Assembly: GCA_017506865.1 (NCBI GenBank)
Contig: JAFCMP010000511.1
Coordinates: forward strand, 496,001 to 560,000
Source: Tribonema minus
Taxonomy: Eukaryota > Sar > Xanthophyceae > Tribonematales > Tribonemataceae
DNA length: 64,000 nt
Reading direction: 5' to 3'
Made by a program: the position numbers and the translations under genes. Below are positions 1 to 50,972 of this stretch, piece after piece. Position 1 is the stretch's first letter. Every line of letters starts with the position of its first letter. Below the pieces are notes generated by a model, which was not told the DNA's origin, did not search any database, and saw nothing but the letters and a program-made list of their open reading frames with translations.

Positions 1-3000
1 GAAGGGCCCCTGCGGCATGATGATGGAGTCGTAGACCTTCATGTTGACGTACGTGCCCCAGCTCGCCGTCGCGGGGTGCAGTTGGAGCGTCACCGCATCG
101 CGCACGGTGCCCACGCCCGGCGTGTTGGCGCCGCGCGCCTTGAAGAAGTCCAGCTGCGGCGGCGCGCGGACGTGGCGGCGGTTTTGAAGATCAAGAGAGT
201 TTGTGGATGCGTTGTAAACAAGTGTGCAAAGCGTTTATATGCACGGTGCAGTTGGAGCGTCGCCGCGTCGCGCACGGTGGCCACGCCCGGCGTGTTGGCG
301 CCGCGCGCCTTGAAGAAGTCGAGCTGCGGCGGCGCGGACGGGCGGCGGTTTGCAGTTACAGTAGTGAGCTCACAACTACGTTTATGACGTGCAACAATTG
401 CAAGAAGTGCTTTCAAATATGGTGCAGTTGGAGCGTCACCGCATCGCGCACGGTGGCCACGCCGGGCATGTTGGCGCCGCGCGCCTTAAAGAAGTCCAGC
501 TGCGACGGCGCGCAGACGGCGGCGGTTTACGCATACAGTGAGGTCATGGATGTGTTTATCAACAATAGTACAAAGTGCTTTCATGCGCGGTGCAGTGTGA
601 CATCTGCGTTTTTTGCAATTTTGGTACAGAATTAGGGCCCAAAAACAGGAACCAGCAAGGGGCCAGAAATTGGGGAGGCGAGCGTGTGGTAGCCATTCGA
701 GATCAACTAGACCACACGATGCTAATCATTGAGCCATTGTTAGTTTTGCCATCGTCCCTTTGCGCACGGCGTTCATGCTTGGCGCCATGATGCCACGCAC
801 GCGCCTTGGAGGAATCCAGTTGCAGGTGCTCTGGCGGCATGTATGAGGATTGGTCATGCACGTGCGGTAAGTAAGCTGGTTGCGCATGATGCTGCTAATG
901 TAGGCTCTCACGATTCAGCACTGCTCAGGTGGTTGTATCCACGGAGTTAACTTCACACAAAGGGGCCGGTGTCCTGCGTGGTCTAAGATTTTGAAGCCTG
1001 TGCAGCAATCTAGTCTGCAGATGGTCTCTTTTTATCTACTTTCGCTCAAGAGGCAGAAACCCTAGACGACTGGTCTGCGGATGGTATCAACTCACGAAAC
1101 TGTCAATACTTGGCAGTTGCGCCCCGAGAGCCTCATCTTCAATTGTTGACGCACCTTGAGGGTGCCGCCGCCAAACGCGGGGTCGCCCGCGGCCTCCAGG
1201 CTGATCTTGTACGTGCCAGCGGCAAAGGTAGCGTCCACGGTGTACTGCGTCCACTCTCCCACCTCCAAGTACCCCACAGAGTTGTACACCGCATCCACGC
1301 CCTGCGGTAGAATTGGGATGTTGAACTTGAAGTTAGGTTCACTAATGAGGGGAAACTACCGGAGAGCAGTTGTTGAAGTGTCTTTGCAGGTGATTTTGGG
1401 GCTGCGTCTGCGCACCTGACTGAGGTTTGGGGCATGGTATCAGTGACATGTAGGGATGGTGGTGGTGGTGTGGTGCAGCAAATGGCGTGACAGCATAATT
1501 CAGGCCTGGGGTGGCAATACTGGCAATCTGCATACACTACGTCGTAATACCTTGCTTCTCTTCAATTGGTTTTTCCGGCAATTTTGGCACAAAATGGAGC
1601 AATTTTGGCACAAAATGGAGCCAAAAACCAGGAACCAGCGGGGGGCGCAGAGGAGGGGGGAGGCGATGGTTCGGGCGTAAAGGTCACACGCAGCACAGTG
1701 TCAGCTGGAGGCAGACATGCAGCAATCAGCAGACCAACGTGGCCCCAAGGTGGCACGTGGGGCTTGCAGCTGCTAACCAGGCAGAAATCGATTTGCAAAT
1801 CCCCCCACCCACCCGGGCGTGTTGTGCTGCAACCCATTGCGCGGTTGCGGCCATGCGTTCCCCGTGAGGATGGTTTTCCCCCCACCACATCTGTCAGTTT
1901 CTCAGCTGTCTGTTGCACTTGTGTGCTGATGCTCCACAGTGCTCATGCAACATCGATTATGTGTGCCTTGCATCGCATTCTGTCGACCAGCCCACGGCTA
2001 GTTGCCTGGGACTGCAATTGCCGCCTGTCGTGAAGTCGTTGTTCGCAGTAAGCTACCAACCCCAGCCTTCCCCACTTGACTCTACATACAATCCTGATGC
2101 TTTGAAGTAGCATCAATATGAGAAGTGATAAACTGCGCCAGCAGAACCTAAGGACCGCATTTCTTGGCAGAGGAGGGTCAGTATGAAACATGAGCACTCA
2201 TAGCGGCACAGAAACAGTATGAACCACATGCTGTACTGATCACTAACTCTTGGATTCAAGTGAGCCCAGATGGTACATGTCTAGCTTGTTATCCGAGTCT
2301 ACATGTGCCTTGAGGAAATCGAAGTATAAAAGTATCTCAATACGCAGCAACGATCACTTCTAATAGACATCATCGCCACATGCTGTACATTTGACATCAC
2401 GCTGCCAAGTGTGTGGCGAAGCTTCTCAAAAAATATGATGCAGCCAATCGTAGAATGCGAGAGGTGTGTGCATGGTACATGAACATGGTAAAGCCAACAC
2501 ACATACATATACATACCTCGGTGCCGCGGTACGCCGCTCCATTCATATTGGCGGCATCGGTGTCGTGGTAGTTCTTGTTCTCGTTGACCGCCTGAGTTGT
2601 GCACATGCAATGCAGAGCGTTAGCTTGTTCAAGTTGAGGGCATCAACTTCAAGTGGCTGTGCTGAGTGCACCTGTACCGCTGACAGCATATGCGCACAAT
2701 ACGTGTTCGGAGTGCAGTCTGCAAGTGCCCTGAAGCCTTCTTGAATCCAGCTTTTGTTGACTTGCACATGTTTGATGTTGGCACCAATGACAACCGGAGC
2801 AGCAGCCATGTCGAGCATGCACACACCTAGACACTGATGGCATGCATGCTTGCAAGTGTGCATGGTCAAAAACCTCGTGGGCTACATATGATCATGCATA
2901 TGATGAGTGTACCACTCAAGATGGTACCCAGCTCGTTGTTACAAATCACGAGTTTCTCGTCCCAGGTTCAAGTACACACACCAGCAGTCCACAAGTAAAA

Positions 3001-3158
3001 GAGTAGTACACGACCTGCAAGGAACTGCACTGTGCTGCAAGAAAATGAGCAGCGCCTTAGTCTAAGCCCTTGTGAGAGCGCATTTTGCACTTCAACATTG
3101 AAGTACGCACCTGCCCCCCCGCGTCCATGTCGTAGGCGGCGAGGTTGAACTGGTACAG
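1..3158 (-). CDS. Gene A exons 23-26: CBM6-like module VI (cut by the window edge)
   Basis: Exon 23 ends LYQFNLAAYDMDAGG. Exon 24 (2591-2517) gives AVNENKNYHDTDAANM, exon 25 (1301-1155, 147 bp) gives GVDAVYNSVGYLEVGEWTQY and ends GGGTLK, and exon 26 (from 153 to the left edge) opens LDFFKARGANTPGVG and reaches MPQGPF, just before the expected T-(V/L)-R-I closing strand. The module is therefore truncated only by the window. The gene must continue to the left. Exon 26 has two further decayed copies of its first 75-100 bp upstream of its acceptor. Confidence 0.82.
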
Positions 3159-6100
3159 CTTGCCGATCGGCTCGAATATCAGGGAGCGAAGGTTGAGACC
3201 CGTCTGTAGCACGGTGATGCGCAGAGTCCAGGGGCCCGCCGGGAGAACTTCCGACGGGTCGCCAACTTCAAGTACGTAGTCGTTCCAGCCAGTGGTCTTG
3301 GCGTGGGCGATTGTGAGGGGGGGGCGTATTTTGGGGGCGTTGGGGTTTGCCCTCGCCGACAGGAAGTCCAGCTGCACGGCTCAGCAATTAGGGTTAGGGT
3401 TAGTACAGTTGAAGTTAGCATTGTTTTATATAAAGGGCATGGCAGTGAGCCGGAGGTCATGCCATCTTCATGGTAGGCCTGGGACGCAGGCAGCATTGCT
3501 GCACAGTGACGCATCCGCCAAGGGGCACTCTACCATGTCACAGGTGCTTTTTTTGTTTTATGAAGCAGCGCAACAGCAGTGCCGCTACTTGTGTTGTGTG
3601 TGCGATGTGCGTCAAGAAGTGGCTGAATATTGCGAACGCCACACCTAGCCCCTCGTCATGATACGCTGAGGACCACTTGTGCTGAAACCCTGAGCACAAG
3701 ACCTGACCCAGTTTAGAAATGTCTCTTCGCATGACCATCATATAGACCCGTGAACCTTATGAAAGTTTGAGGTTTGCTGACGCTGTGCCAACACTACTGA
3801 TGATTTTCTTCTGCGCCATTGCAACACGAGAAGCACCATCGCTCTGCTGTATACCGCATGTGACTTTATGTTCTGCTCATGCAGCGTGAGCACACCGTGG
3901 GAACCTCGCATGAATATGGGAATTTCCTCCATGTGCTCTTGGTCACTTCTCGTGGAGGGCTTAGAAAACACAGATGACTATTGTCAAAAAAGCCATCAGA
4001 GTCTACTAGAGGCCGCAGCGAAGGGTTTCTCGACACAGCGCTCGCGTTGGACACCGCCTACCCGCAATCGTAGCAACAGCTGTGCGCCAACCAGTTGGTG
4101 CACATCCTCAAACGCAAGGGTTCAAGGTGATTGGTGACCAGCTGTAACCCGTATTTGATGGCAACCGGCGCAACACGCATGCTATATGCCTAGTTCCAAT
4201 TCTTAAACTGCCTCTGACCCTACGGCGCAAGTACTGGTTGCGTTCGTTGCCATCAAATAGTCTCCTATGCACTATTGAATCCCTGACTTGTGCCTTGCGC
4301 AACTCACCACTAATCCGTCAACCATTGAAGTCACGACTACATAGCATATAGCATGCGTGTTGCGCCGGTTGCCATCAAATATCTGCTACTGCCCGCCTTT
4401 GGGGGGGCCTGTTGACAGCAGCGATACCTTATGCTGAGGTTGAGTGTAGGCTTAGAGTTACAACTGCAGTTGCCGTTAATAGCAAGGTTGGGGATAGAGT
4501 CAGTGCAGCGCAGACCGCACTGTATCAACTTCCACTTAAGGGCGGAAACCCTATGGCCATAGGAATAGGCAAGGATGTTTTACAGCTCTCATGCTTGGGC
4601 AATGTGTGTGCTCACAGCATATCTGTACTACCTACTATACTAGTGGTAGGCTCAGCTGGTAGCAGATCGTTGCGCTCAGCCAGGCCAGCTACTATACCCG
4701 GTACTGCCACCCGTGCCAGCGCGCGTCACGAGCAGCAATATCTTATCTTTGAGGTTGGGATGAGTTGCAGGTTAGTTGTACTTTTTGAAGTATGCATTGT
4801 AGGGCTGGGTCAGCGCAGACCGCACCTGCTACTGCCACCCGTGCCAGCGCCGAGCTGCAGTTCGGTTATACTTCTTGAAGTGCGCATCTGAGGGTCACAG
4901 ACATGTACTTCAACTTGAAGTAGTACGTTGAGGGTTATCGCACAACATACCTGGCACTGCCCGCCCGTGTCGGGCCCGGTTGCGAGCAGCGGTATCTTGC
5001 CTTGAGGTTATACTTCTTGAAGTATGCATTGAGGAGGTATATCTTTCATGTTGAGGGTTATGCATACCTGGTACTGCCCGCCCGTGTCGGGGCCCGTCGC
5101 GAGCAGCGATATCTTGTACGTTCCCGCGCCGAACGACGGCACCGTGTACTGTACCCACTCCCCTACGGCAGCCCACCCGATGCTGTCGATGGTGGCGTCA
5201 ACCCACTGATCATGATGCAAAAGGGGCAGCAGGTGCAGCAGGCCAGTGAGCGCGCATAACGATGGTTCTACTCGCGTTTGACAACGCGGTGGGCGAGGAT
5301 TGGGAGTGCGTACGTCATGATGTCATTGCCCGTAGCAATTGTGCCAGCTGTCGATGGTGGCGTCGACCCACTGGTCATCATGCAAAGGGGCAGCAGGCAC
5401 AGCAGGCGAGTGAGCATGGGGCAGGGTGTTTGAGGTTGGATCTGACAAGAGTGGGTGCAGTAATGGGGATTTGCATAACATGTCATGGTGGCAACCGTGC
5501 CAGCGGATGAGATGCTTGTGCGGAGGCCTGCGATATCTGGGGGTGGCACAGGCATGGCATGACATTATGTTCGCCCCCTGCATGTGTGTGTCAAATAGCG
5601 TGAATGCTGTAGCTGCCACAGCTTGTGCATCTGACGATCATGACGGCAGTAATTCTGTGTTGCAACAAATACATCATTTGGTACCCTCAGGATAGCCGTT
5701 TCAGACCCCAACCCTAACCCTACCCCTACGCTTTAACCCTGGTCTTACAGTCAGCCATGACAAAGGCAACTGTGCAGATAGTTGCGCTGACTGCCCGGTT
5801 GCTGCCCTTTCGAGGCAGCAACTGAGCTACACCTGTAGGGCAATACCGAGGAATGTGCATGCAGGGGCTTTTGCAACAGTATCGCAAGGGCTTTTGCGAC
5901 AGTATGCCACCGGAGCACCGGCCCTATGTGAGCCGGTTGAATTATGGTCTCAGCTATCGCTGCATATGCCAAGCAGCGTTGCCAATATAGTGATTGTTGC
6001 ATATGAAAAGCGGTAGTACCCATTTCCAGACTTGTAACTGAGGGTGAGACACACAACTCGACCAGACAGCAAGCACCTGTGTGGCACTGTGTGACCCCTA

Positions 6101-9100
6101 CTGTGATGCGGCACGTGACGCACGCATGTGCTGAGCAGCTGCACACAAGCTGAGCGATGCTGCATGAATGCATGCGCTGAGTAAGCAAATGACTGTGTTG
6201 CACTTGAGTGCTGATGCTCCACAGTGCTCATACAGCATCAATCCTGTGCGCCTTGCATCGCATTCTGTTGACCAGCCCACGGCTAGTTGCATCACTTCAG
6301 CATCTCAATCTGGGTATACGAGCCTGCCATACACACAACCTCAAGAATGAAGTCAAGGGGTAAGTAGGAATGCAATTATGTATGGGTATGGGTATGAAGT
6401 TGTGCAGATGTTGCACTTTACCTCTCCCACACGGTAGTCAGTGCTCGCCCAGTTCTTCTCGTCGATGTCGTGGTAGTTCTTGCCCTCGTTGACGCCCTGA
6501 AAGCAAACGCCCGGGCAGACAATCGTGAGAACCGGCTATGTCTGAACAGCAATGACCTCTCTGTGGTGTTGACAATTTGGCGCCAATTTTCCTTTTGTGG
6601 TAGTAAATTGTAATGCTGATCATATCATTCCGGCTGATGCATGTGCCATTGCAACTGTTGAGGTCTAGTATGCGACTATGCGTTGACACCTACATTCCCG
6701 CCACAAGCAACCACGCAGATGTATGGCACCTGTACAGTACCAAACAATCACAAGACGCCAATAGCAGCAGCCTCCGCAATCATCACCGCTTGACACACTT
6801 TGACATGGGCACAGCGGATCTCACCCCTACTTACTTCATAGTCTGACATGCACAGGCGCACACACACTGCCTCTTGACAGTCCCCAGCAAAGCGTAATAT
6901 CACAGTCTGAGGCGCACGGGCACACTCTGCCTCTTGAGAGCGCACGCGCAGCATACCATCATACCCGTAGCGCGACTCACCCCCACGTCATAGTCGTACG
7001 CGGCCAGATTCAGCGTCAGCATTGATGGCGGCACAGGCGCCGCCGTGGGCGCCGCCGTAGGCACCGCAGTCGTCGGTGCTGCGGTCGGCATCATAATCGT
7101 TGGTGCCTGAGTCGGTGCCACGGTGGTCGGTGCTGCGGTCGGCGCAGCAGTCGTGGGCGCCTGGGTGGGAGCAGCAGTCGTCGGTGCCTGGGTGGGAGCA
7201 GCAGTAGTTGGCGCTGGTGTCGGTGAAGCAGTGCTCGGCGCTTGCGTAGGCGCCGCTGTCGTCGGCGCCTGGGTGGGTGCGGCAGTGGAGGGAGCTAATG
7301 TGGGTGAAGCAGTGCTCGCCGCTTGGGTAGGCGCCGCTGTTGCGGGCGCAGTCGTCGGCGCCTGCGTGGGTGAAGCAGTGCTCGCCGCTTGAGTCGGCGC
7401 CGCTGTCGTAGGCGCTGCCGTTGGTGCTTGCGTGGGTGAAGCAGTGCTCGTCACTGCCGGCTCCGCCGCCGCAACCGCCTGCACCGTCGTCGTTGCCGCG
7501 GTGGCGGCAGCGGTCGGCGCGGCGGTGGCTACGGCTGTGGGCACCGACGTCGCGGCAGCAACCGGCGCTTGCGTGGGTGAAGCAGTGCTCGGCGCCTGGG
7601 TAGGCGCCGCAGTTGTGGGAGCCGCAGTGGGGAGCGCGGTGGGGGCGGGCGTGGGGGCGGCAGTGGGCGCCGCCGTGGCAATAACGACGGGCTCGAAGAC
7701 GAGGAAGCGCACGTTGAGCCCCCCCTGGAGCACCGTGATGCGCAGCGTCCACGGGCCCGCGGGCAGGTCCACGGCGGCGTTGACGACCTCCGTCCTGTAG
7801 TCGATCCAGCTGCTCGTCTTGGCGTGCGAGATGACAATGCCGGGGCGCAGTCTGGCGGCGGCGGGGTTGCCCCTCTGCGTCAGGAAGTCCAGCTGCAGTG
7901 CGTGCGGGGTAGAGGTCAAGCATGTATGTAAGCTTAGCGCGTGGTATGGGCAAGGATTTGTGATGAGGGTTAGGCTGCCACAGTGGCGCCCGTCATTCAC
8001 AGCGCTGGCACTGCACTCAGTACCAAAGCAAGACAGAAAAGCATCAGACCTGAACAGCATCATAAGTTGACAGCACCAGACTCTACAAAGTCAAGCATCA
8101 ACAGAGGCATGCACTAACTTCAGCTTCCTATCACTGCATCAATTGTTGAGTCACTGCCCCCCCCCAACATTGCATCCCTAGCTGGACAGACATTGTGCAG
8201 CTACATGTTGCCAATAGCATCACCCTGATGCCACAACACATGCGGACTCTGTACCACCTATGTTGGCTTTTGCCCATGTAGTGAGCTCAATGCAGATGCT
8301 GCCTGATAAAGTCAGGGTAAGGGTAAGGGTAGGGTGATGACCAAAGCAAGACAGAAAAGCATCAGACCTGAACAGCATCATAAGTTGACAGCACCAGACT
8401 CTACAAAGTCAAGCATCAACAGAGGCATGCACTAACTTCAGCTTCCTATCACCGCATCAATTGTTGAGTCACTGCCTCCCCCCAACATTGCATCCCTAGC
8501 TGGACAGACATTGTGCAGCTACATGTTGCCAATAGCATCACCCTGATGCCACAACACCTGCGGACTCTGTACCACCTATGTTGGCTTTTGCCCATGTAGT
8601 GAGCTCAATGCAGATGCTGCCTGATAAAGTCAGGGTAAGGGTAAGGGTAGGGTGATGATGTCAGCTGCCTTTGCACAGCGACGGCGCAGCAGTTTATCGC
8701 GCACGTTTTCCCGGCGCACGCCGCCGTTGTTTGGTGTGTGTAGTGTTTTGGCAGCTCAGAGCAATGGCCGTGAGGGAAGAGTTTGCTGAAGTCGGGAAAA
8801 TGGGGCTGGGATGGCATTGAGAGGACAAGCTACCGCTGCGCCGCCACTTCAAGGCCATGGTCAAGCAGTGCATTTGCCTGAGATCTGCTCCGCGTAAAGA
8901 GCATTTGACGGCTACAAGTGCTTTACCAACAATTGGACCAGTCGCTCCCGCTCACAGGTTGAACATACCAGCTGCATGTATTGTTCTTCATTTTGCTCAT
9001 GTATTTATATATTCAGCTGCACTGGGTACACTAATCTGAAAACAGCATGTCCTCACAAATTCGTATTCACCAAGACCCCAAGGCACTCGGATGCCGTTTT

Positions 9101-12100
9101 TTTAGCGTGTCCCTAGAATCATACACGAATATTTCTTGCAGCAGCCTGATGTGAGGGTTAGGGGTAGGGTTAGAGCTAGTCTGCACTGCGCCCTTAAGAG
9201 CTTGAACACCGGGGCTGATGCACACTGTTCCGTGTACCTGGAACTGGCCGTTCTCTACTTCAATGTATCTGTATATTTACCTGCACTAAGCACGTATGGA
9301 CTTGTATTTATAAAGGCCCAAGGGAGGCCGGGTTGCCTATGCAATCGAAAAGCTTGCGTCAACGCAGCAGCCTAGTCTGCGCTGTGCCCTAGGAGCTTGG
9401 ATACCGGCGCCGCAACACAGCCCAGCATTCGCGCTCCACGTGTGTACGCCATGACGCGCTCCGCCAACTCCCGCGCCAGCGATATGCTCAGCTCAATGAG
9501 GATCTGACGCTTAGCTAACCCGGCCTTGCGTAACACATCTGCCTTCCCCCCCCCTGAGCACAGTGCTGAGTGCATTGCCAACTCCTTAACAAAAAGGCTT
9601 GTCTGCTTGCCCAGCCGTCCGTACGACTCCTGCACGAATGGCACAAAAGCCCAAGATGACGTCAAGGTGCCGGTGTGGTGCTTGACCTTCGCGTCCTCCC
9701 CCACCCCAGCAGCATAGCCGTCCGTGTTCGAGGCATTTGTTTTGCCTGTCAGGTACGAGCTCGCTGTGGGCGCGCGCACACTTGTGTCTAGCACTATTCC
9801 CTTGTTACGGTATGCACTGCTAAAGTGCAGACACCCTGGGTCAATGACTGTGTCCGCCCGATACCCCGGTACCTTGAAGACGCTAGCGTCCTCATTGCGG
9901 ACAATAGAGACATGGTGCTGTCTCAAGATGCGCTGCAGGCACCGCTTTTGGGCAGTGTGTGTCGCGTTGTGCCCCCGTATGTGCTGGCTGGGGCAGCTGA
10001 TCGCATGCGTAGAGGTGGGGCTCACATCACTGCACCGCCATGGGCACACCTCGCCCTGTATGCCCCACCCGTCTATGAAGATTGCAATCAAAATCATCGT
10101 GGCTGCTGCCATACTGGACATGGGCGCCGCACCCGGGCGGTCATTGGCAGTGGGTGGCACGCTCATCCACGCCATTGCCCCGGACGCACGCTGGCTGCGC
10201 AGCTGCGCCAGGACCCGTGCGCTAGCCTGTTGGCGGCGGCGGCTGGTGTCGCGCGAGTCACCAATAGGTGCAGCCTGCGTCGGCTTGCCCACGGCACCAG
10301 CCGAGGCAGCCTCTAGGTCCTCCACCAGGCAATCCTCGTATTGACGTCGAAGAACATTTGAAAGGCCGGCTTGTAGTCCGTGCGTGAAGTGACCGCGCCG
10401 GCGGCGGGGCACTACCTTCCTGCAGATCTCGTCAGCATAGGCCTCCCAGTCGTCGTCGTCGTCCTCCTGCCCGCCGCTGCAGCTGCTTTCTTCCGCGCTA
10501 GTTTGTGTTTTAGCGGGCGTGGAAGGGGCAGCCGCGGCAGCGGCTTGAGGGCCAGGTACGGTCGCCGCCGCAGCGGCCGCCTCGGCGCCAGGCACAATGC
10601 CGTGGGTGTGTGGGGCTGGCTCAGTGGTCACTGTCTCCGTGACGGCAGTTGCGGCGTAGATCGCTTGCACCGCAGTGGGGAGCGTCGACGCTGCGGCCGT
10701 CGTATCTGCTGCCCACCGTAGCAACGATGCTGGGAGCTGCTCGGCCACAGCTGTGCGTGATTTTTCGCCGCCATCAGCTGTCAGCGCTCGCGTAGAGCGT
10801 CGCACGGCCTCGATGATTGGCGGCAGTCCCTGGTCCTCGCGTATTGCGCATGAGTGCTGCGCGAACCAGGTGACTGCGCCGTGTTCGTCAGTGCCGAGCC
10901 TCAGGGCCCCTGCTGCCACAGTGGCATGAATTATTGCCGGCCTCAGTGTTGTGCATGCCTGGGCCGTGTATGCGGCTGGTGCCAGTAGCCCCAAAAGCGG
11001 CATGCCCAGACCGCCTCGTCGCTCCGGCAACCGTGACGCCCGCAGTGGCACTGCGATGTCCGTGAGTTCTGGCGGGCCCAAGCGCGGCAATACCAGCACG
11101 CTGCCACTGCTGGCTTCCTCATTGTCACCAGCAGTGCAGGCGGCCAGCAGGTGTGACTTCATGGCTGCCGCGGTAGAGCAGCCGTGCAGATGCAGCATGC
11201 GTTCGAGCGTCCATGCACAGAATCCGTCAAACGCGTGCAACCATGTCTCACTCAAAGCCGTGTCAACGACCCGAGCTAAGAAGCCCATGCGCTTCGTCAG
11301 TGACCTGCGTAGAATGAACTGTGCTGCCTGTAGGTGATGCCGCGCCATTCCAGCTAGCTGCCACGACAATCGCCATGTCCCTGCGTCGACAAGATGCTTG
11401 CTCATGGCAGCGTGCACATAGGCTGGGTGCCCTACCGGTACCCCGACCGACGTAAAGCCCTGACTGGATTCTGGCATGGTGGTGTCCACAAACGGTATGT
11501 CAAGGGCGCGCAGGCGTGCTCTGGCCGCTTCATCAAACACTGTGCCGCGCATGGCGATGGCCAGCGACTTGTCTGGTCGAACGCGTAGGCCCCCTGCCGC
11601 CAGCCGGCGGATCACCTCTGCCACCCCAGCGGCCGCTGCATCGTCGAAGTAGGCAGCTTGCAGCACGTTGAGGTCATCCAGGAAAGCGCAGTGCGGGGCT
11701 GGCGGTTCCGCTGTGCTGTGGCCGTAGGCCGGCATACTGCCGGGCGTCGCATTCACTCCATCAGGGTAGAAGAGTAGGAAGGCCGCTGCCACTGCAAAGT
11801 ACAGCGGCCCTAGAGGGTCCCCTTGCTGGCACCCTAGGTGGGAGCAAATAATGCGAGCTTCACCGTTCACCTCCACCCGCATCTCTGGGGCAGTGTCACC
11901 ACAGTATACGGACTCAAAGTGCGGGAGCAGCTCCGGACAGAAGAGCATAAGCCCCCGCACAATGGCGGCGCGATCCACACTGTTAAATGCGTTCTCACAG
12001 TCCAGTTGGATAGTGGTGCCATACAGTTCGTGCCACACGCGCGCGCGCGCTGCCACATGCTCGACGCCAGACCGGTATCCTACGCCAAACTGCGACATGG

Positions 12101-15100
12101 AGGCCAGCAGCCCCGATATCTTGCCCTTGACACTCCGTGCCGCTGTGGACCCGAGGAGTCTGCGCCAGACACTGGAGCAGGCGATCGGACGCCGCTTCTG
12201 TCCTATGCCTGAGAGGGCCGCGGCGCGGAGAAGCCGTTGCGATTGCTCCGGCAGCAGTTCGGGCTCAACAAGCAGCGTCGTGAACACCTTGGCCAGGTGA
12301 TGGGCGAATGCCGGTTCCATCACATCTGATTCTGAATCACCAGCTAGTCCTGGCGAGGCACTGCTCACGGGGCGGGTGGCTGCTTTCACTGGTGCACCAG
12401 GCCCAGCGGCCATCAAGAGGTGTTCATAGCGTAGGCCGTCCAGCCCTCCTGCCTTCCCCGCCCCTGCTGCGGACAAGGTCGACAGTATGTCTGCCGCCTC
12501 CACCTCGAGGCGCCGTCCGGCTGCGCTGGCAGCATCCTCAGGCCTATCGCTGTGATCATGTGCCTGACCCGATTCGAAGACAGGACTGCCGCTGCCAGCT
12601 GGCCCGGTGGTCGTTGCCACCCCTGCGCTGTGTAAGCAGTGCCGCCGGGCGTCGCGTACCAGGCCGCGCACTTGCTCCATTGGCGTATCGATTACCCCCG
12701 GCCGGGTGCCAGTTTCAGGGTGCTTTGCTGCCAGCACCTGTGCCGTGACCTCGTCTGCTGGGGCGCATGCTTCACGCGCCTCTAGCACAGTAGTTTGGAA
12801 GGCAGCATGTACTCGTGAACTCATTATCATCAAGACCCCATGGGAGGCTGAGTTTTCTAGCGTGTCCCTAGGGTTTGCAAACTTATGCAGCAGCGTAGGG
12901 TTAGGGTCAGGGCAAGGGCTAGGGGTTAGGGCAGGGGCTAGTCCTAAGTGGTTTCAACGCCAGCGCTGACTCACACTGTTCTGCGTACCTGGAACTGGCC
13001 GCCACTGTCGGGTCCCGTGGCTGATAGCGAGATCTTGTACATCCCGGCGCCAAACGTGGGGATTGTGTATTGCACCCACTCGCCTACGGCAAACCACCCA
13101 ATGTTGTCGGACACCGCATCGGGGCCCTGTGCGCGGAAGTGGTGCAGAAGAGGTGAAATTCATTGCATGCATTTGCTCATTCATGTATTCATTGGCATTT
13201 ATTCACTCAGTTACAAGCGCAGTGGCCCACTTCCCCACGGCAAATCATCCGATGTTGTCGGACACCGCATCGGGGCCCTGCGCACGGAAGAGTCGCGGAA
13301 GTGGTGAAATGATTTATTCATTCGTTCATTCATTCATTCATTCATTCATTCATTCATCCATTGGCAATGAATCAATTGGTCACAAGCGCAGTGGCCCACT
13401 CGCCCACGGCAAATCACCCGATGTTGTCGGACACCGCATCGGGGCCCTGTGCGCGGAAGTGGTGCAGAAGAGGTGAAACCGATGCATTCATTTATTCGTT
13501 CATGCATTCATTTGCATTCATTCGAGCAGCTACAGGCGAAGTGCTCAGAAGCAAGGCAAAAGCAGCAGCTGGGCTTGCACAGTGGCGCCAATATTCACAA
13601 GTCAGTCTCTCGCTAACACGGGCAGTAGTGATGGATGACGAATGACACATGGGCATTGCGAGTGTGCTGCCACATGAAAAATGAAAAATACTAGGTGTGC
13701 TGTTCAGACAAGCAGCTCGGGCATGCATACCTTCCGCCTGCAACTGATACTGATGAAAGATACAACAGACAGGCTTACCTCCTTCGGCCTGTATGTGGTG
13801 CTGGCGAGGTTTGTGTTGTCGGTGTCGTGGTAGTGCTTGCCTTCATTAACGGCCTGCAATACGGCGGACAAGTAGGCAACATATTGCAGCGCGGAGGCAG
13901 ATTCATCATGTCAGGAAAAAAACTGCCAGCCCTGCATCGTGACAGCACTGTGATTGGTGACACAATAGTGCCATTTGGCATGTGAAAATGTGTCCGAGGA
14001 AAGTAGTACTTCAGAAGTATTTATTGTTGCACATGGACGCAAGCTTGCGCTGGTACATGCTGAGTCATAATATTACGCAACTATGTACACAAAAATTGGG
14101 AAATTTGTGTCGTGCGCTGTTGCATGAAATGCTGAGACGTTGTGTCACGGCATTGTGCTGGGTGAGTTTTATTTTTGCTGACAAGAGTATGGTTTGCGCG
14201 CAAGCCTGGGGGAAATGAACAGGCCAGTCTAGCTAAAATTATTGTTTGAGGTACAGAACCTGCTCAAATGGTCAGCAGCGCAAGCGGCACCGTCGTCATT
14301 GATGAATTGTTGATTTCTTTTCCTCTCGACAGGCTTCTAAGCAAGTTCCAATTTTATCAGTTCATTGCCTATTTGCACCATGTAGGAGTATACCAAGAAA
14401 ATATCACCAAACTTTGACGCCGTCATCGTAGTTGATTGCCCAGGCTGACAGTCAGTAGCGCGGGCACCACGGCCACGGCCGCTGCGTCATTTGACCTTGA
14501 ACTCAAATTTCTGTCACGAATTCATGTATATTTCCGGTTATCTCACGCCACTCGTTATTCGTAATCACAAGTTCACCAGATACAACATACTTTGAAATAG
14601 AATCTCAGAGTTTTTGATATTTTCTAGTCACAAGTAATTTAACAAATGAATTAAAGTATTGAAAAAGGTGAATATACTTCTTTGAAGTATTTTAAAACTG
14701 TGTTCAAGAGCATATTCCTGTCCATTCTCATCTCACCCCGTCGTCGTAGTCGTAGTAGCCCAGGTTGATGGTCAGCAGCGCTGGCGCCACCGTCAGGGCC
14801 GTCATGCCATATATATTTGTGCATGCATGTCATGAACTTAACCATGTAATAATGTTTTTCTCATAGATTAACTCAAATAGTCCAGTAAATTCCCACGCCA
14901 TCGTCGTGGTCGTAGTAGTTGCCCAGGTTGATGGTCAGCAGCGCTGGTGTCACCGTCAGGGCCGTCATGCCATTGATTTTTGTGCATGCATGTCACCAGC
15001 TACAGCACGCAACACTAACTTTCGTCCATGCATGAAGGCTAATATTCCACTTCATTCGCACAGTCATTCTCACCCCAACATCGTAGGCATAATTGCCCAG

Positions 15101-21100: not shown

Positions 21101-24100
21101 GACTTGCTATCACACAGATGAAGTAGCAAGAAACACAACTGCCGCCAACTTCCAATGAGCTGGAAACAACCAGCCTTTTGAGTTCTTTAGCAACCATACA
21201 TACCCAGCCTGGTAAAGCCAAGAAGGCGCTGACGTTCTGGCCGCACAGCTCAGCACCACAGCCAGCTGGCCGGGTGTGTGGCGCCTCAAAGGTCGCGCTC
21301 ACAAAGTGTAATATTCAAGCCTGCACACACACGTCGCGCCGACATACTTCAAGTTCAAGCGTACTTCAATGTTGACGTTCAAGCGTGCTCACCCCCGGCA
21401 CGTAATCATACGTGGCCAAATCCACGCGCACGGTGGCCATGCCGAGGCCGTCCGTTCGCGTAATTGGAGTGCCACTGACGAGGCCAATCAGTGTAGCCGG
21501 CAGCAGCGGCGGCGTTGGCGGTATCGGCCCCACCGCAGCCGCCACGGGAGTCGCGCGCACCCCGCCTGGCAGGCCGCCGGTGCCGTCCCTGGGGTCCCAG
21601 TTCACCTGCACGCGCGCAGCAGGTTAGGGTTTGGGGTTGAGTGTTGGAGTTGACGTTGGGGTCATGTGTGCTTGAGGTCAGGCGTGCTGTTGGCGGCATT
21701 GGGGGGGGTGGGGGTGGGTCTTGGCAGTGGCATCAGTGCAGGCGTTTGTGACTGAACTACTGTGAATTCAAGTTGACTGGTGAGTGCTGAGGAACCTGAT
21801 GGTGGAGGCTGGAGCTTCGGGCAGAACACCCGAGGCATGCTGCAGTCGCTCGAGAGCACGTGCCTGCATGAACGCGCACAATCATAACGATGATTATGAT
21901 TCATCATGAAACAATACACAGGCTCTAGCGCTGCACTCATTGATGGTATGACCGCAGCATGAAAATGCGAGGCCTGTATATTGGCTTCTGCATACGCTTC
22001 TCCACAATCATGCGTGTTGAACGAGGGAACAGCCCAGTACTGCGTATTGCGCATGGCCGGCCCTAGTCAACAGCGCAAATCGGTCTTTTGCGCAGTCTAC
22101 CAAACACGAGTGATCTTCAATTGACCATTCTGTTGTTAACCTAAACGAGCTTCAAGCGGAAGTCCTTGGGAATTTCAAATTTAGGCCGCGGAATTTTGAA
22201 GCGATGCGATCTAGGTGCACGAAATGCAGAGCGTCACCGCTTGAAGGTCTTGTAGCACCCCCAGCAGAGACCCCCCCACTCACGTTCAGCCGCGTGAAGC
22301 TGTTGCCGTTCGTCTTGGAGCACACCACGAGCCTGTGCGTGCCGGCGCCGAGCTCCAGCGGGCTCCACCAGTTCACATTCTTGAAGTCCATCCTGCTCGT
22401 CGCCTCAACTTCAAACCCCACGAGCTTGTTGACGTTGCCGCTGCAGTCGTTCGTGTCCACGACGATGAGGAACTGGCCCTTGCCGCCGCCGTCGCGCGCG
22501 ACGACGGCGACGCCGTTGAGCACTGCCTTCTTCGCCAGGTAGACGGTGTAGGAGAGCCACTCGCCGTTGTCGAAGTCCTGGACGTAGGCGCCGCGCGACT
22601 CGGTCCACACGTTTGTGTACCACGGCGGGAATGTGTCGGCTGCGGGGTCACACGCATACAGAGGGGGCAATGTCATGTTTGTTTTGGGGTTGGTGAATGG
22701 CAGGTAGGGTCTGAGGATAGGGTTAGGATTAGGGTTGGAGAGCCGATCGTCGCTGTCGAAGTCTTGCATGTCGGCGCCGCGCAGCTCGGTCCTCACGTTC
22801 GTGTACCACGGTGAGAACGTGTCGGCTGTGCACGGCGTGCATACAGAGGGGGCGATGGCGTTGTTGTTTTTGGGTTAGTCAATGTCCAGTAGGTTTGAGG
22901 TTAGGGTTAGGCGAGGGTCATGCTTATCAGTAGGGGCAAGCAAATCGTGTCTAGACCCGGTGTGACGAGATCACTCAAGACGCGGTGCAACATGGCCTCG
23001 TACTGGCAATGCTGCAATGAGCGTGACATGATGTGCATGGTGACCAGAGCATCTGCCACAGGTGCTCCATTCCCTCTAACGTCCATGACTATTGCAATAT
23101 ATCAATGGCACCCCAACCCCTTTTTTCGCTCTGATGAAAAACTTGCCCCACGGGCTTAATTAATTGTAGATAATTTGGTACGTATACTTACCAGGTTTGA
23201 ATGCCCGGTAAACAAAGAGATGCAACGCTGCTCAAAGGCATGAGCATTCGGCAATTATTACCCACCTCCATCTGAAAGGTCCACTCCATCGTACGGGCGG
23301 TACTGGCTGTTGCCCGAGTTGAAGTTGGGGGTGTTGTCAAAGTAGGCAATGCCCTGTCCTCCAACGTCAAAGCTCTCGGCATCGATCCTGTTGCGGCAGA
23401 ACCGCGAAGCACAGCAGCAATGCGGCACGCCGTCAGTATCTGGTACCATACTACCGTATTATCTATAATCAAGCCCATGGGGCGAGTTTTTTATGAGTTT
23501 CCGAGCCGTTATAAAATGGCGCCCCACCCTTGATTTTCGCCCATATAAAAGTGCCCCCCCCCCCTTTATTCTCACGTGCATACGCAGCATGTACCCTCTG
23601 CGTACGTGTACTATGCACACTCAGTGACTCATGCTACATTACCACATTATGTGTGCGCCTGCATGCGCTGTCAGCAACGTGCAGAGCAGACAGAATGGCA
23701 GCAGCAGCTAACAATGTAGCCAAACCCACAAAAAGGCTCGGAGAGGCAGCAGCTGGCTTTGCAAAAGTTGAACTGGTTTCAGGAGCGGCGTAGAAGCATG
23801 CTAGCACCTCATGATGGTGTGAGATGAGCTAACATGGCTCAAACATTAATGCACCCCACCCTTTTTTTCTCCAAATATCAATGGCGCCCCACCCACCTTT
23901 TTTCGCTCTCATAAAAAACTCGCCCCATGGGCTTAATTATAGATAATACGGTACTGCATTGCCACATGGTGGTAGAGGCTAGCAACCTCAACGCCAAGCG
24001 AATGGCAAACATTGGGCTACTGCAGCACCTGAATGGCTACCAATGACCATTCAACAGCCATACTTGAATGAGACGACAGCAGCGTCAGCATCAACACACC

Positions 24101-27100
24101 GGATGCTCCGGAAAGGACATTTCATTCAGTTTCTCTCAGCTCGCACATATAGCACAGCAGGCAGTGATCCAGCACCAGATCCAGATGCATTCTTGGCTTT
24201 GTGATCAGTCCACTACGCTCAATTTCTGGCAGATTGGTGTTGTGCTCGCAGTGACTCTGGTAATTGCAGGGCCAGCATTATGTCAGGTATCACACCGTAC
24301 TGCTGGCCATCCACATCAGAAGCGAAAGATTGCGCATGATGAAGCACCCTAGCCCTGCGCTCCGGCGGGCAGTTCTCGCCGCTATCAGCCCAAGGTTCTG
24401 TCTCGCGGGGATCCTGCCACGGCACAATGTTTCTGCCGAGGTGCTCACCCGGGCAGGTTCTGCCACGGCATAAGCTCACAAAAGTATTACAGAAGCATCA
24501 ATTTTTTAGAAAGGTGCTCACCCCAGGAAGATCTGCCGCAGCACAAGTTTGTGCCAAGTTTACAAAGAAGCATTCAATTCACAATGTGCTTTCTTCCCTT
24601 GCGCTAGAGTAGCAGAAACCCTATTCCGCACCACGCCATGTACAACACGTAGTCACAACATACGTACCCCAGGGGGATCTGCCAGGGCAGGAGCTGCCCC
24701 GACGCGTTCTCCACATTGTACGCGACGGGGATCTCGCTCACGAGCTCCGGCGGCAGCGGCGCCTTCACCGCCCCTGGGAACCGGAATCTGCTAGTCTCCC
24801 CGACCTGCGGCAGCTGCGTGGCGTCGAGCTCGTACACGCGCACGTAGTCAAAGGCCATGCGCCAGGGGCCGGCACCACTGGGGGGCTGCGGCCAGTTGCC
24901 GCCGATGGCCAGGTTGAACATGAGGGTGAACCTGGGGGGGGGGGGGGGGGGGGGAAGGGGGGGGGGGGGGGATGGGGGTTGTCAGCAGGTCACCACGGGC
25001 AGGTTGAGCGCCAGAACATATTTGTGATGGGGCGGGGGGGGGGGGGGGGGGGGGGGGGGCATGGGCCGGTGTCAGGAGGAGAATCAAAGGGCTATCATTG
25101 CCGGTTGTTGTGCGAGCCAAATTGACCCACGTTGAAGTTTGAACAGCGTGTGGGGCCTGCGCTCCGAGTACACATCAAGGGCGTGCACGGGTGCAACCCT
25201 AGCCCGAAGGCTACTGTAGCATGCCTCTGATGCTGGCGCCACTGGCGCCGCCCAATGCTGGCACCGTCTGATGCTGGCGCCAGTGTCGCCACCCAATGCT
25301 GGCACAGCACGACTCGGCAGGGTCTGTATGTTGCCGTTTGGCAATCAAGCAGTGCTCAGCATCATAGTTTTGGTGACACTGCTCAATGGGCCATGGCACA
25401 TCTGACGTTGCAGGGGGCGGCGGCGTTGCTGTCAAGCAGCAGCGCTCATCAGGCAACAGCCCACATCTGATGCCTTGGGCAGCGGCAACGTTGCTTTCAA
25501 GCAGCAGTGCTCAGCACGCAGTGGCACCCACCTGACGCCGTAGGGAGCAGCGGCGTTGCTCTCAAGCAGCAGCGCTCACCAGGTAACAGCACCCACCTGA
25601 TGTTGCAAGGGGCGGTGGCGTTGCTCTCAAGCAGCAGCGCTCATCACACCTGATGTTATGAGGGCGGCGGCATTGCTCCCAAGCAGCAGCGCTCAAAATG
25701 CAATGGCCGCCACCTGATGCCGTAGGGAGCAGCGGCGTTGCTCTCAAGCAGCAGCGCTCACCAGGCAACAGCACCCACCTGATGTTGCAAGGGGCGGTGG
25801 CGTTGCTCTCAAGCAGCAGCGCTCATCACACCTGATGTTGTGAGGGGCGGCGGCATTGCTCTCAGGCAGCAGTGTGCAAAACGCAATGGCCCCCACACGA
25901 TGTGTTGACTCTCAGGCAGCAGCACTCAACATGCAACAGCACCCCACCTGACGTCGTAGGGAGCGCCGGCGTTGTTCTCCGCCATGAGCGTCTCAGAAAA
26001 CCATGTGGAGCACATGCAGTACGTCCTGCCGTCAATGCCCCAGGCAATGTAGCCCGGCGTCCACGACAGCGTGTACACGTGGTAGTCCAGGCTGTAGTCC
26101 AGGTTGTTGTCCAGTACGCTGCAGTACACGTGAAAGGGGGTGGGTGGCGGGGGGCGGGGTCAGTGCAGCTTTCGTGTCACGACGTTAAAGATGTGCACGG
26201 GGTGCTCCTAACCGTAGCTCTGACTCGAGCCTTTACTGCACCTTGAATTTAACTGTAATGCTGAACCTGACCAGTGGGGGCATCGCTGGGCCATACGACT
26301 GGTGTGCACATGGTGGTGGTTGCTGAAATCATTACTGCACTACTCATGTTGCAGCACTTTCACCGCGCGTCAAATATGCTGCTGCAATGCATGCACGTCG
26401 TGCATTGCACGATGAGCAGCTTGGCACCACAGGGTGAGCTCGATCTCATATTGCAGTGCATCATTGCACAGAGGTTCAGGCAATGTTGAACTTCATGTGC
26501 TTCAAGTGTTACAACTTCAGAGCCGGCAGGCACAATTGGCAGAAGTATTCCACGCAGTTTGCTGTGAATACTGCCCCTGTGTGAGACGACATACATGCAA
26601 ATGCATAGAAGCTCAAAGAACCACAACGTGCCTTACCTATTGTCTCTCACACACACTCCTGTGCATACCGATCGAGCTGTGATCAGGTAACCAGTTATCA
26701 TCCATGTGTAAATGCTACGGAGCCATTGCACTACGTGACATCAAACACACACCTCCGCTGAGCACTGCTTGTGTGTCAAGCACATAATGCATGGACACTG
26801 ACATCCTGATCATTGCATGTTAAGCCAAGCATTACGCACGTGCGAAAGAACATTAGCCATCACTGTCTGCTGTGGCAGCGACTCACCAGCCATTCTGCCC
26901 CTTATTCCCTATTCTGAATGCCCCTCCGTAGTGCAGCGTTGCGTGGGGCTGTGAGAGCACGTACAGACGACGGCGTAGCAGCAGCAGCAGAGAAGTGAGC
27001 ACACTAAATTCCAATCAGCATTACTGGATCATCTGAACCTCTTCTATAAAGTCCCTGTTCCTTCCAATTGCTTTACGTGGTGGAACATTGTGATTGATCA

Positions 27101-30100
27101 GTTCGATAGCGTACGAGGGAGCTCAGCGAGCAGAGCTGCATCCCACTCGTTCTTGCTGTAAAACGCACTCAGCTCCTGCCTGTACGATGCTGAGCTGAGT
27201 AATGCAAGTTGACCTTATCATTACCAAGGTGACATTAGAGCTGTTACTATTCTGGCCGTTTGTATCATTTGTGGGAAACCGGTTACGAATGCATTGACCG
27301 TTGAGCTTCATGTCGGTATCACATTAAGGAAGGATCATTGTAAATGTAAGCAAGCAGCGAGATTGCCAATGAGATCCACTTGAACTTGAAGTTGGAGAGG
27401 GGTGGGCGCCCACCTTTCACAACACAAACACAAACTACCATCTAGGTCCGCACTGATGCTTACCAGAGTGTTCGAAATGCGCCATGCGTGCCGATTTCCC
27501 CTTGTCCACCGCTTCCAGTACTGACACTATACTTTATTTACTTGAGGGGCGGAAATCCTATAAAAAGAAGCAAAATACGCAACTCGTGTACACATGTGCT
27601 GTGTCAAACGTGCAACACATGCGCTCTCTACACTATCAAATGGTCCTGGCCGCCAAGCCAACCACAGATGGGCTTCCAGGAGGGCTTCGTTCGCCTCAGA
27701 GCCCCAAATTGTGCTGTACTGTCATTACAGCAACCAGCTTGCACTGAGCACTGGCCGTCGCAACCACGGCATAGCAGGAAGACGTGAATGCGCAGCAGCG
27801 CGCCTCAACATGACCTGATGCGTTTCATCATGCGTACCGATATGCGAGCATGGGCTGCAGCATGTCACATTGCGACATCATGCGAACCGATTCATCGATC
27901 GCCCCCTTCGGCGGGAAAAGTACTGCAGCACATGATGTACATCATATGCTGACATTACAATGGTATGCGTACCGATTTGCCATTGTCCACCGCCTCAAAG
28001 ATGTCAATCTCGCCCGATGCTGGCCAATTGCCATAGACCCCTGGCATAGGGTCTGGCAGCATATAGATGGATGGCCTGAGAGGGCAAATGATGGAACAGT
28101 TGCGCTCACATTTGTCAGCATTTAGCATTGGCAGAGGGATTTGGGTCTTGAGTGCTGCATGTGGAGCAATGTTCAAGAAGAGGGGCAAGTGCACTGCTAC
28201 TGGTTACTGCAGTTGTTTCTGATCTACTTCTCACTGAGCGCGCGCACGCCCGCTCCTTGTCATCAAGCTCGTCACCGTTATTGTCAAGCTTGTAAGCCTC
28301 AATTGGAGCCTGCATGTATGTGGTAGCAAAGTGTTTCGATGCTCTGTGCCGATCGCACTACGGTCGCACCGCTGTCATACCAAACTTTTGAAATTGAAGA
28401 CAAAATGCTAAAGGAAGAAGTAGTGCAGCGTGTGACACAGCACCATTGACACATGTAAAAACGTGCATATCGCCCACATTATCACGAGCATCCACGACCG
28501 TCTCAAGGGCATATGGCCCAAGCGGGTGCCACCCAAGGCTACAATGCAAACTGCAGCTGCAGCACGGCATTGAAGTAAAGCAGTATGCTGTTGTGATGCG
28601 CAGGTTTTTTTCCCTTCAAGGCAGTCGAAGACATGCGCTGCGTCCAGACACCCCCAAGATCTCTCACTGTGCACATGCATAATGTCGCACGTGGCGAGGT
28701 TCTGCTTTATCAGATGCACTGTTGCTAGCTTTTGCAGAGTGGGCCCGCGTTTGAGCCCGTGCAGCGATTCTGTCTTTGCGCCATTGCTCAGCACATGCAG
28801 CAAATGCCGCTGCGGTACGTCATGGTGCGGCGCACGGTGGGTGGTTCAGCATTCGAGTGCGAATGCGTTCACACATTGATCGCTTGACGTGCGCAGGCGG
28901 TGAGATGCGTCACGACATTACTGCATGCACCATCGCACCAGCATGCAAAGTTGCGACAAACCACATGCTCCAAAGTATATGATGTGAGGGTCGTGTATGC
29001 CGGTATAGAACGTATACACATGTAACTCAAGAATAGCAGCAATTCCAACGTGTGGGCAATTGCATACAACGCACGTTGAAGTAAATTTTACTATCGCTCA
29101 CCAGGTGCCCAGGCCCGCGGCAATCTTCATCCTGATTTCAATGTGGCCGTACGTGATACTGTACGCCTCCTGCGTCCCAATCTGCGAGTGGCATGCACAG
29201 CAATACGGCATGTATGATGCTCTCAGAACGCGAGGGCAGGGCATTTTGTGCGGCAACCCATTGCGCGGTTGCAGCTGTGCGTTCCCCGTGAGGATGGCGT
29301 TTCCCCCACCACCCTCTGTCACTTATCAGCTGCCGGTCGCACTTTGTGTGCTGATGCTCCACAGTGCTCATACAGCATCGATTCTGTGCGCCTCGCATCT
29401 CATTCCATAGACTGGCTTACGGCCAGTCACGGGGTGACTTGGTGACTGAAGACCAATTGCAATGGTAGGTCAAAGCTTCCGCACTTGCGCAGACACCTGC
29501 TGAATGCGCGTAAAGTGATGATGCATCAGTACTGAGTTTGCGTGCGCTCGTCTCACAGTGCAGCACTGGATAAGGCACTCTATCAGGCACACTGCCCATA
29601 GAGCTTATAGAAACGAGCGCACATTTGATAACAGAGTTGTGGGCTCAGCCGCTGAGCTGAGCGCTGCCTGCACAGGGGGACAAGCAGCTGGCGGCCATGC
29701 CTGCTTACCAAAGGTGGTTGATTATGTCACTAAAAAAACATAGGGCCAAATGTGCATGACAGGGCTGCCAGAAAGGACGTATACAATAGGAGTATGCCGA
29801 GCATTGGGTGTGTTATGGGGCAATCATTAATACAATGCTACAATGCCGCAAGCATACGGGCATGCTCTACAGATTGGTCTTGTTGGCCTACTGTTGATGT
29901 GACAGCACTGCACTAGCCCAACTCTGATCTGTTGACCTCTCAATGCTACCCCTTACCCAACCCACTACTCTACTGCTGGCTCTTTGCTGCAAGCATTCTT
30001 CCAGGGCTGCTTCAAGCGTGGCACTGCTCTCTGCTCTCAACATGTTTGATGTACTGGTGACCTCGGTAGCCTAGGCTGCTGCACCGCGATGTGCAGCTGC

Positions 30101-33100
30101 GCTCGCTCTACAAGTGAGCTGACCACCGCTGCTGTTGCTTTTCACTTTCGGCTGACCCCAGGAAAAATGTCATTTTCGGTTGAGTCAAGCTTCAGTTATC
30201 AAATCTGGACCAGGGCTAGAGGTGGGGCTACCAGTAGCGCGTGGGCGTTGTCAGAGGCTTTGGCGTGCAGCATTCTCTTGCTGAGCAAGCATATGCTGAC
30301 TGCGAGGCTGACAATGTCAGCACAATCTGACCTTTCCGGAGCTGTACAATTGCCCTTGGCTGCCGCCGCCTGCTTTCCCCTCTATGATCTGCAGATGTAA
30401 CACCAGCAACATCAGCAATCGTGTTGGCAATTCATCACGGTGCCAAGCTGAACCTTGTATACTTTACGCTGACAATACGTACCAAAGTGTCAACCGCAAT
30501 CAGCAGGTCTAGTGATTGCCTGTTGTTGTGCACAAGAGAGGGAAGTGAGCGCGAAGCTATGGCACACAGCAGTACTGCTACCAATCACTTGGGCAGCCCA
30601 AGACTTGATTCCAATGTACACTTTTTGTCGAACACACATATTTCAAAACGTGCGATGGGCATCATGCAGGTTCAAGTGGAAGTGAAATTGTGTGCAGCAG
30701 GCCAATCTAGTAAAGCAGTGCGCAGGTTGCGCAACATTGCAACAGAAGAAGGCAACATTCATTACAGATGTAGCCTTGCGCTCGTGCCTCTTTGACAACA
30801 TAGGCAACTCCATGGTACACCCACTGCAAGTACAAGGGGGCAGGCATCGGAGCATGCAACCGGGGGGGGAGGGGGAGGCGGGCATCCGGCAAAGTCATCT
30901 AGTGTGCTCATCAGAGTGAGCAGTAAGACCAGGTGTGTGTAAAAAGTGGCAGAGAAGCTCTACATTATTCATCTGCGGGTTTCACGCCCCAAGCGACAAG
31001 CAATGTAGGTACTGTAGCATCAAAAAAAAAGCAGCACCACCAAGGTAATCAACCATAAGCTCACCAAACTGCCATTGTCGATGAACACGTTGTTCCGCTC
31101 GTAGCTCTGCAGCTCCCCATTTGTGAACGGGTTGCCGAGATAGAACTCCCATCTGCACGACAGGGCACGGATTGGAGATTATGAACCCAACGTGATGGGA
31201 AGTGCTCATGTAGTTTGAGCAAGACCGAGGCATTATTTTTGTAGATGTCCCATTCGTTGGCGTGTGCCCGCCACTCATGCTACTTGGCTACTAGTTCTCT
31301 CTCATGAAGTGACACCAGTTTGGTAGACTATTGCCTTTGTTAGTTTAAAAGTACTTCAAAGACTGAGGCCTCACTTTGTTAGAATTCCTACTCTACTGTT
31401 TTCTGACGTGTGCCTGCCACTCATGCTACTTGGTTACTACTTCTCACGAAGCCTGATCAAAGCATTTTTGGGTAACAGTTCTGTAGACTATTGACAGCAA
31501 GCGAGGCATGCGCATTGTAATCACGCAAGCCCGATGCCTCATTTGTTTCCTGTGTCTCACTGGCAGTTTTTGCGTGTGCCCGTCATGGTGGCTACTTCTA
31601 CCCTTAAAGCGGGCTACAAGCGGCTTTTTCTGTGAAGAAGAACAGTATTCTTGTCGACGGCGAACAAGCAGCATAGCGTTTGTCAGGCATGCGTATGATT
31701 GCGCTCGCTGCATGCACAGACCTTCTAGGCATTACCCTACAAGTGTCCACAGAGTTGCTTCAAGAGCATCATACCGCTGTCTTTGGGCTTCATACTTTGC
31801 AGTATAGTCTATAGCTTCAGCGTTGCTGACACGCATAAGATGCAGTGCGTATCTTGAAATTTGCAAAGACCGGTGCCATTTGATGTCTTGGTCAAGATCA
31901 CGCACTTCAAGAAGCTTCAGAACGTCAGCGCCATCAGCATGAAACACTCCAGTGCGTGTTCCGTCGTGCATGTGTATATGCGCGCAAACACGCAAGATTC
32001 CGCAACCTTCCCACCCATACTCACATGCTCTCATTGATGGTGTCACCGTTGAACTCGTCTGCCCACTTCAACTTGCCGCGCGGCAGCGGCGGCAGCGCGG
32101 TAGCCACCGTCGGCAGCTTTCTTTGCGACACCTCCGGTCCGGCATTGTCGCCACCCTCCTCGTCCTGTGAGTATACGCCAGCGATATTGCCATCCGCGCC
32201 CACGTATGCGCCGTCTGGTGTTTTTCCTGCTGCGGTAAGCGAGACGCCGTGCGCGCAGGCGTCAGTTGAAGTTGAAGACCGTGCACTGGCTTATGAGCAC
32301 ACCGTGAAGGTAGGAAGTACATGCAGAACTCGCGGGAGTGAAACTGAACCGCGGGTGTGGTAACGTCGGTGCTAGAGGAACACCTGTCGTGCGCTCTCAC
32401 AGAGAGATGTTTGCTATATATGAGTCCGTGTGCATGTTCTGAGTGCCTTGATGGGCTAGAGCTCATGTGCTTCAGTTACTTCCGTTTGAAAGGCGGAGCC
32501 CCTACAACAACAAGCAGGATGTACAGCCCTAACCCTAACCCTAACCCTAACCCCAACCCTAACCCTAACCCTAACCCAAACCCTAACCCTAACCCTAACC
32601 CTACAACAACAAGCAGGATGTGCAGCTCTGATGCCCATACAATACGCGTGCTCACAGCGCACATGGAGGCTGGCAGCTGAAACCAAGTTCTGCCCACACT
32701 CAGCCAGGCCAGCTACGCTGAGGTTATGTAGGTTAAAATTAGAATGATAGCTAGGCCTTCATGGTCCCTACATAGAATGAAAGCCCCGCTACTATCTCTA
32801 CGGAAAGGGGCGCAGCCAGGTACCTTGAAGTGCTTCCTGATGATCATCGCTGAGAGCACAAAAAAGCCGAGGTGATGCATCAAGGTTGTAGGCAGAGTCC
32901 ACATGTACCTTGCAACAAAGCACCTCGATGCTCTCTGACTATGCACACTTTATGAGATGGCCAAATCAACGTACATGGACACACTCAAGCAGCTTAAAGC
33001 GCATGCGCGCCACATGAACTTGTGTTGGATGCACTCTCTGAGCTCCTGAACGTGACCAAACTATCCTCCAGAATTGATCCCTGCTCCACTATATATATAC

Positions 33101-50938: not shown

Positions 50939-50972
<34 letters not shown>

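Follow-up and report, generated by a model that had tools for sequence, protein, structure and literature searches.

Small tandem duplications that straddle splice junctions, and that are commoner near exon borders, appear to lengthen the introns of Tribonema minus from their edges inward; the duplications may themselves originate in the repair of DNA breaks. We give this reading a probability of roughly 0.6. The copies in question are of local origin, run in tandem, decay neutrally, occur in many genes, and are found at junctions in excess of simulated uniform placement. The process would be ordinary tandem duplication, acting in an unexpected place and on a scale that shapes introns. The original prediction held that introns lengthen by repeated duplication at exon borders and implied a system without a known name. 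The lengthening itself is borne out, being general in the sampled genes and above a uniform null, but the direction of the copies is no evidence of a special system.

The window analyzed is a stretch of 64 kb (positions 496,001–560,000 of one contig) from the T. minus genome assembly, which comprises 158 Mb in 554 contigs. Intron-bearing genes and 92 matches to the light-harvesting family mark the organism as a photosynthetic eukaryote; a search for the pherophorin family gave no match, a result that does not by itself demonstrate absence. Identical or near-identical kinase matches occur on separate contigs of this assembly (C144, C223, and C278; C90 and C179), which suggests uncollapsed haplotypes or recent duplications. 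Gene A, with exons placed by reading frame and splice sites, occupies the minus strand of the window; it starts at about 33.8 kb (1–33837), runs past position 1, and comprises some 26 exons by our own count. An exon model, Pfam, and the database gene model P0001 indicate GH16-type glucanase exons followed by CBM6-type modules. The 20 exons from 26118 to 1, when joined, form a single stop-free frame of 1389 codons, and Pfam identifies CBM_6 (PF03422), CBM_35_2, and a weak GH16 (PF00722) in the first 731 residues of the gene A model. P0001, on the same contig, matches most of the gene A exons when compared by eye. The CBM6-type modules (1–20733, minus strand) have three exons each and nearly all of their introns are in phase 0, a layout that favors duplication of whole modules. 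One gene A exon contains Ala/Pro/Thr-rich coding tandem repeats at 7100–7680, where P0001 uses a different frame. The window also includes a dispersed repeat (1599–2000) with at least 46 other matches in the genome at identities of up to 95%, internal telomere-like CCCTAA/AGGGTT repeats (32527–32603 and 51197–51333), and a stop-free frame of 1705 codons on the plus strand (37729–42846) that has an NB-ARC match (PF00931, E = 1e-7) and long stretches of Ala, Gly, and Gln. A scan of the 64-kb window with Rfam gave no match at gathering scores.

Copies of exon edges had been described beside exons 5, 7, 10, 14, 17, 19, 22, and 26 of gene A, and self-alignment of the window bears this out for exons 7, 10, 14, 17, 19, 22, and 26. 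The local direct repeats that it detects were assigned to exon numbers via the splice sites, the 20-exon frame, and a comparison by eye with P0001, the numbering being that of our own exon count; all are on the minus strand. Acceptor-edge copies form upstream arrays at exon 26 (75–596; true acceptor 153) and exon 19 (13075–13543; true acceptor 13126). Donor-edge copies form downstream arrays at exon 17 (14731–15372; last exon base 15301), exon 14 (18177–18606; last exon base 18516, with a farther copy at 18020–18082), and exon 7 (25381–25979; last exon base 25948, with periods of 65 bases and longer). Both edges of exon 22 are copied: the donor edge and its nearest copy span 4927–5116 (last exon base 5068), with a farther copy at 4383–4448, and the acceptor edge and an upstream copy of 70 bases at 90% identity span 5182–5415 (first exon base 5205). 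At exon 10, the acceptor edge and an upstream copy span 22548–22911 (first exon base 22639), and P0001 splices into the copy. The donor edge of exon 19 (12803–13001) has a copy of 67% identity at 9043–9250, and a long reverse-transcriptase open reading frame within an intron of gene A (9375–12953, minus strand; PF00078, E = 2.9e-7) sits between these two copies of one array (9043–13001). At exon 5, the expected copy is present but weak: the donor edge (27965–27996) matches 32 bases at 87.5% identity (27484–27515) about 480 bp downstream, the whole spanning 27484–27996.

The claim also extended to exons 4 and 6 of a gene B, for which no coordinates were given. Two predicted exons on the plus strand, 48225–48346 and 50988–51175, both outside 1–33837, fit the description and are probably the exons meant. 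The former has acceptor-edge copies upstream (47783–48270) and a donor edge with a downstream copy of 74 bases at 90.5% identity (48295–48474); the latter has an acceptor edge with an upstream copy of 56 bases at 78.6% identity (50506–51031). As described, copies of donor edges lie downstream and copies of acceptor edges upstream of the true exon, but this direction is uninformative as a sign of a special system because, once a junction has been duplicated in tandem, an intact exon remains continuous with the outer of the two junctions alone. The statement that the unit is always the junction proved too strong. On the minus strand of gene A, the tandem duplication at 8022–8658 (two units of 318 bases, 99% identical) lies off the junction and involves intron only, as does that at 16476–16615 (offset of about 70 bases, 83% identity), and of the 33 arrays found in 48 curated introns, 9 are likewise confined to the intron.

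The copies look like neutral relics. In the nearest copies at 17 usable curated junctions, the exon part is 88.2% identical and the intron part 76.5%, and the corresponding values for predicted introns (21 usable) are 90.4 and 75.5%. The ratio of exon to intron divergence is therefore about 1:2, the value expected of neutral decay when the exon itself is held fixed and its copy alone can diverge. In 78 copies from genes of known frame, the mismatch is 0.118, 0.116, and 0.175 at codon positions 1, 2, and 3, respectively; gaps shift the frame in 39 of these copies, and 6 have an in-frame stop. Similarity falls with distance, as had been noted: among 35 cases with several copies, the nearest copy resembles the edge more closely than the farthest does in 24 and less closely in 9, with 2 ties (P = 0.014). 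The expectation of many decoy splice sites was also correct: GT is kept in 19 of 29 donor copies and AG in 23 of 26 acceptor copies, and P0001 uses one such site. This retention, together with the splicing of P0001 into a copy, is what might be seen if the copies were functional, serving as alternative or back-up splice sites under selection. However, neutral decay would leave about 0.75 of the sites intact, close to what is seen; the first two codon positions diverge as in an unconstrained copy; half of the copies are frameshifted; and exon and intron divergence stand in the ratio of neutral decay. All of this makes selected function very unlikely.

The same divergence bears on the suggestion, raised with the original prediction, that the copies might be artifacts of assembly. 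The 99% identical array at 8022–8658 could be a wrong expansion, but exon-part identity ranges from 0.68 to 1.00 in multi-copy cases, the intron part is about 0.76 identical, and there are both frameshifts in half of the copies and a retroelement reading frame between the copies of one array. We regard an artifactual origin as scarcely credible.

The shape of the duplicated unit was examined in 38 of the 42 junction copies, those with an offset of up to 300 bases. The offset is 85–200 bases in 36 of the 38, and the exonic part is 102 bases or less in all of them, whereas simulated uniform breakpoints give exonic parts of more than 105 bases in 19.5% of cases. The exonic breakpoints thus lie near the junction, unlike the prediction of uniform duplication. 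Tandem exon duplication is a source of alternative exons, and it resembles the present case in that exon sequence is duplicated beside itself; here, in contrast, the edge alone is copied and the copies degenerate in the manner of non-coding sequence. The copies are arranged head to tail on the same strand, adjoining their source, and none was found in the intron across the exon (0 of 131). No other match within 314 kb was found for 79 of 102 arrays, and the matches of the remaining 23, among up to three listed for each, have the look of paralogous exons or of dispersed repeats.

These properties bear on two known sources of intron sequence. In intron gain by tandem genomic duplication (AGGT), as outlined in PMC3443670 and PMC2891723, a duplicated exonic segment becomes a new intron and the protein is unchanged. 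The likeness is that tandem duplication and splicing together turn a duplicate into intron while leaving the protein as it was; the difference is that such introns arise anew from an exonic segment, whereas the duplications here affect junctions already in place and extend introns that were there before. Introners (see PMC9860276) share with border duplication the character of a repeated process that adds intron sequence genome-wide, but they are sequences common to many introns, whereas the units described here are private to each junction within 314 kb. The repeats could be traces of intron birth by exonic AGGT tandem duplication or of introner-like mobile elements, either of which makes introns with repeated ends (an effect outlined in PMC3443670). 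The resemblance of donor to acceptor surroundings that defines AGGT-type birth is absent, being seen in 14 of 127 introns versus 11 of 127 when the acceptor is that of another intron, and the arrays within the 314 kb examined, most of them without any other match there, seem to form no shared family such as introners would leave. Neither candidate is supported, and we consider an origin of this kind highly improbable.

The generality of border duplication was assessed in introns from other genes. Kinesin-family exon matches were collected genome-wide, and 22 10-kb loci holding some of them, together with three others, provided 30 introns from 43 adjacent exon pairs; of the other pairs, 11 showed a gap or overlap relative to the family profile, 1 scored too low, and 1 lacked a site, and some of the accepted scores were low. 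With 18 introns from gene A, these make up the 48 curated introns. Arrays are present in 26 of the 48, and with offsets of 1000 bases or less, 24 of the 33 arrays touch a junction, a count that includes copies on the exon edge that cross the junction by fewer than 12 bases. By our own sum, recognizable redundancy accounts for about 7.9 kb of the 45.6 kb of intron in this set, to which older copies, now beyond recognition, would add. Another 75 introns were predicted by a gene finder trained on the curated genes; of the 48 curated introns, it reproduced 26 exactly. Its grouping of exons into genes put the gene A region on the wrong strand, and its exon predictions alone were used; 38 predicted exons recognized as copies of better ones were discarded before the 75 introns were tested, a step that may favor junction calls. 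A later sample, taken with slightly different settings (profile gap range and complexity cut-off), consisted of two kinesin loci picked blind to sequence. Of their 8 pairs, 7 passed, and the splice scores of two of these were low (3.0 and 4.2). Its 7 introns contain 11 arrays; 1 is interior and 10 touch a junction, of which 6 are at acceptors, 2 at donors, and 2 on an exon edge that they cross by fewer than 12 bases.

Direct controls were run within the same genome. Of 254 junctions, 77 show the exon edge (up to 79 bases) copied into the intron that it borders. The control figures are 0 of 131 for the intron beyond the exon, 4 of 254 for an unrelated intron, and 7 of 158 for pieces of exon interior at least 90 bases from an edge. 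In a variant of the same test, the reversed exon edge gave 9 of 254 versus 76 of 254 junctions with a copy. Pieces from the middle of introns had copies in 30 of 198 one-sided tests. Junction copies are thus about twice as frequent as one-sided copies of intron middle, and exon interiors are seldom copied. Alignment of exon edges to their own introns, which had been proposed as a check, therefore shows junction copies exceeding all of the controls in the 254 sampled junctions. Junction copies are real and general in the sampled genes and are not confined to gene A.

A frequency of this kind could also arise with no preference for junctions if duplications fell uniformly, if exonic ones were removed by selection, and if those at junctions were over-noticed through their conserved exon half, which decays half as fast. 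A simulated null is needed because the conserved half keeps a junction copy recognizable for longer and because short introns leave little interior. Uniform single duplications were therefore simulated in the same introns with their arrays collapsed, followed by neutral decay and the same detection; the conclusions rest on this simulation, compared with which a simple formula gave stronger significance in most comparisons. With all sequence visible, and with arrays that lie wholly in exon or have fewer than three simulated detections omitted, 17 of 25 arrays in the 48 curated introns are at junctions versus 6.0 expected (P = 9e-8), and 21 of 32 in the 75 predicted introns versus 6.9 expected (P = 6e-11). 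When the exons were hidden during detection, the corresponding numbers were 15 of 25 versus 7.4 (P = 3e-4) and 15 of 28 versus 5.2 (P = 7e-7). These P values assume that arrays are independent. Arrays that touch a junction are thus 2–3 times as frequent as in the matched simulation, also with the exons hidden, so that uniform placement with the same filter and the same detection bias still falls short. The clustering of exonic breakpoints about 100 bases or less from the junction and the rarity of copied exon interiors (7 of 158) likewise speak against it.

The coverage of introns by repeats, on the other hand, agrees with uniform placement. Repeats cover 21 of 100 exon edges and 354 of 1638 positions between exons, with edges no higher, and coverage along introns is flat when the exons are hidden. 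Interior arrays exist as well, the most alike in gene A being that at 8022–8658 described above. Flat coverage argues against a strong junction excess. However, the rotation null used for coverage ignores alignments lost where hidden exons cut them at intron ends, so that flat coverage is compatible with an excess at junctions; arrays were counted instead of bases because a single array can take up a large share of its intron. The original prediction had named an equal frequency within introns as evidence against itself; such equality is seen in base coverage but not in the number of arrays. The evidence comes from one genome, and 75 of the introns tested are predictions. On balance, we consider uniform duplication without junction preference unlikely, although it deserves to be taken seriously.

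According to the preferred reading, growth of introns from their borders, small tandem duplications, which are common in this genome and have units of mostly 85–200 bases, would arise when staggered breaks or opposed nicks are repaired, and the neighborhood of exon borders would be hit more often than intron interiors. Where a duplication straddles a junction, the outer junction would stay on the exon and still be used, and the extra copy would become intron; the messenger RNA would be unchanged because the outer junction is still the one used. Later duplications may include the true junction again and push older copies inward, so that introns would lengthen from both borders toward the middle while the copies decay neutrally. 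Repair of staggered breaks or opposed nicks yields small tandem duplications, through Pol alpha-primase/CST end joining or "patch-mediated" repair, as outlined in PMC8355091. The duplications described there are, like these, short, head to tail, and made of local sequence; compared with that outline, the units found here are mostly 85–200 bases and concentrated at splice junctions, and the breakpoints of old copies are unreadable. Tentatively, and at rather less than even odds, we propose further that borders are targeted by a process tied to them, such as breaks or nicks associated with transcription and splicing, which makes junction-centered duplications of about 85–200 bases, and that the resulting conveyor, fed at both ends of the intron and carrying aging copies inward, is the main engine of intron lengthening in the lineage. 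In searches of the literature, no earlier account of introns growing through duplication at their borders was recognized from titles and the openings of abstracts, which is a weak indication of novelty given that the subscription literature was mostly uncovered.

Junction arrays are a practical hazard in that they mislead gene annotation. P0001 splices into the copy of exon 10 (22639–22911) and replaces exon 22 by sequence beside its donor copies (4927–5415), and the gene finder used here also called copies as exons. Junctions ringed by near-identical, apparently unused splice sites would also offer a natural test of how the spliceosome chooses. The long introns of some algae are unexplained; for relatives of Chlamydomonas, the account in PMC8226300 describes their benefit as unknown and the mechanism that drives their length as likely ancient. 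If growth by border duplication is true, intron length in T. minus would have a mutational cause open to counting, to dating from how far the copies have diverged, and to comparison between strains.
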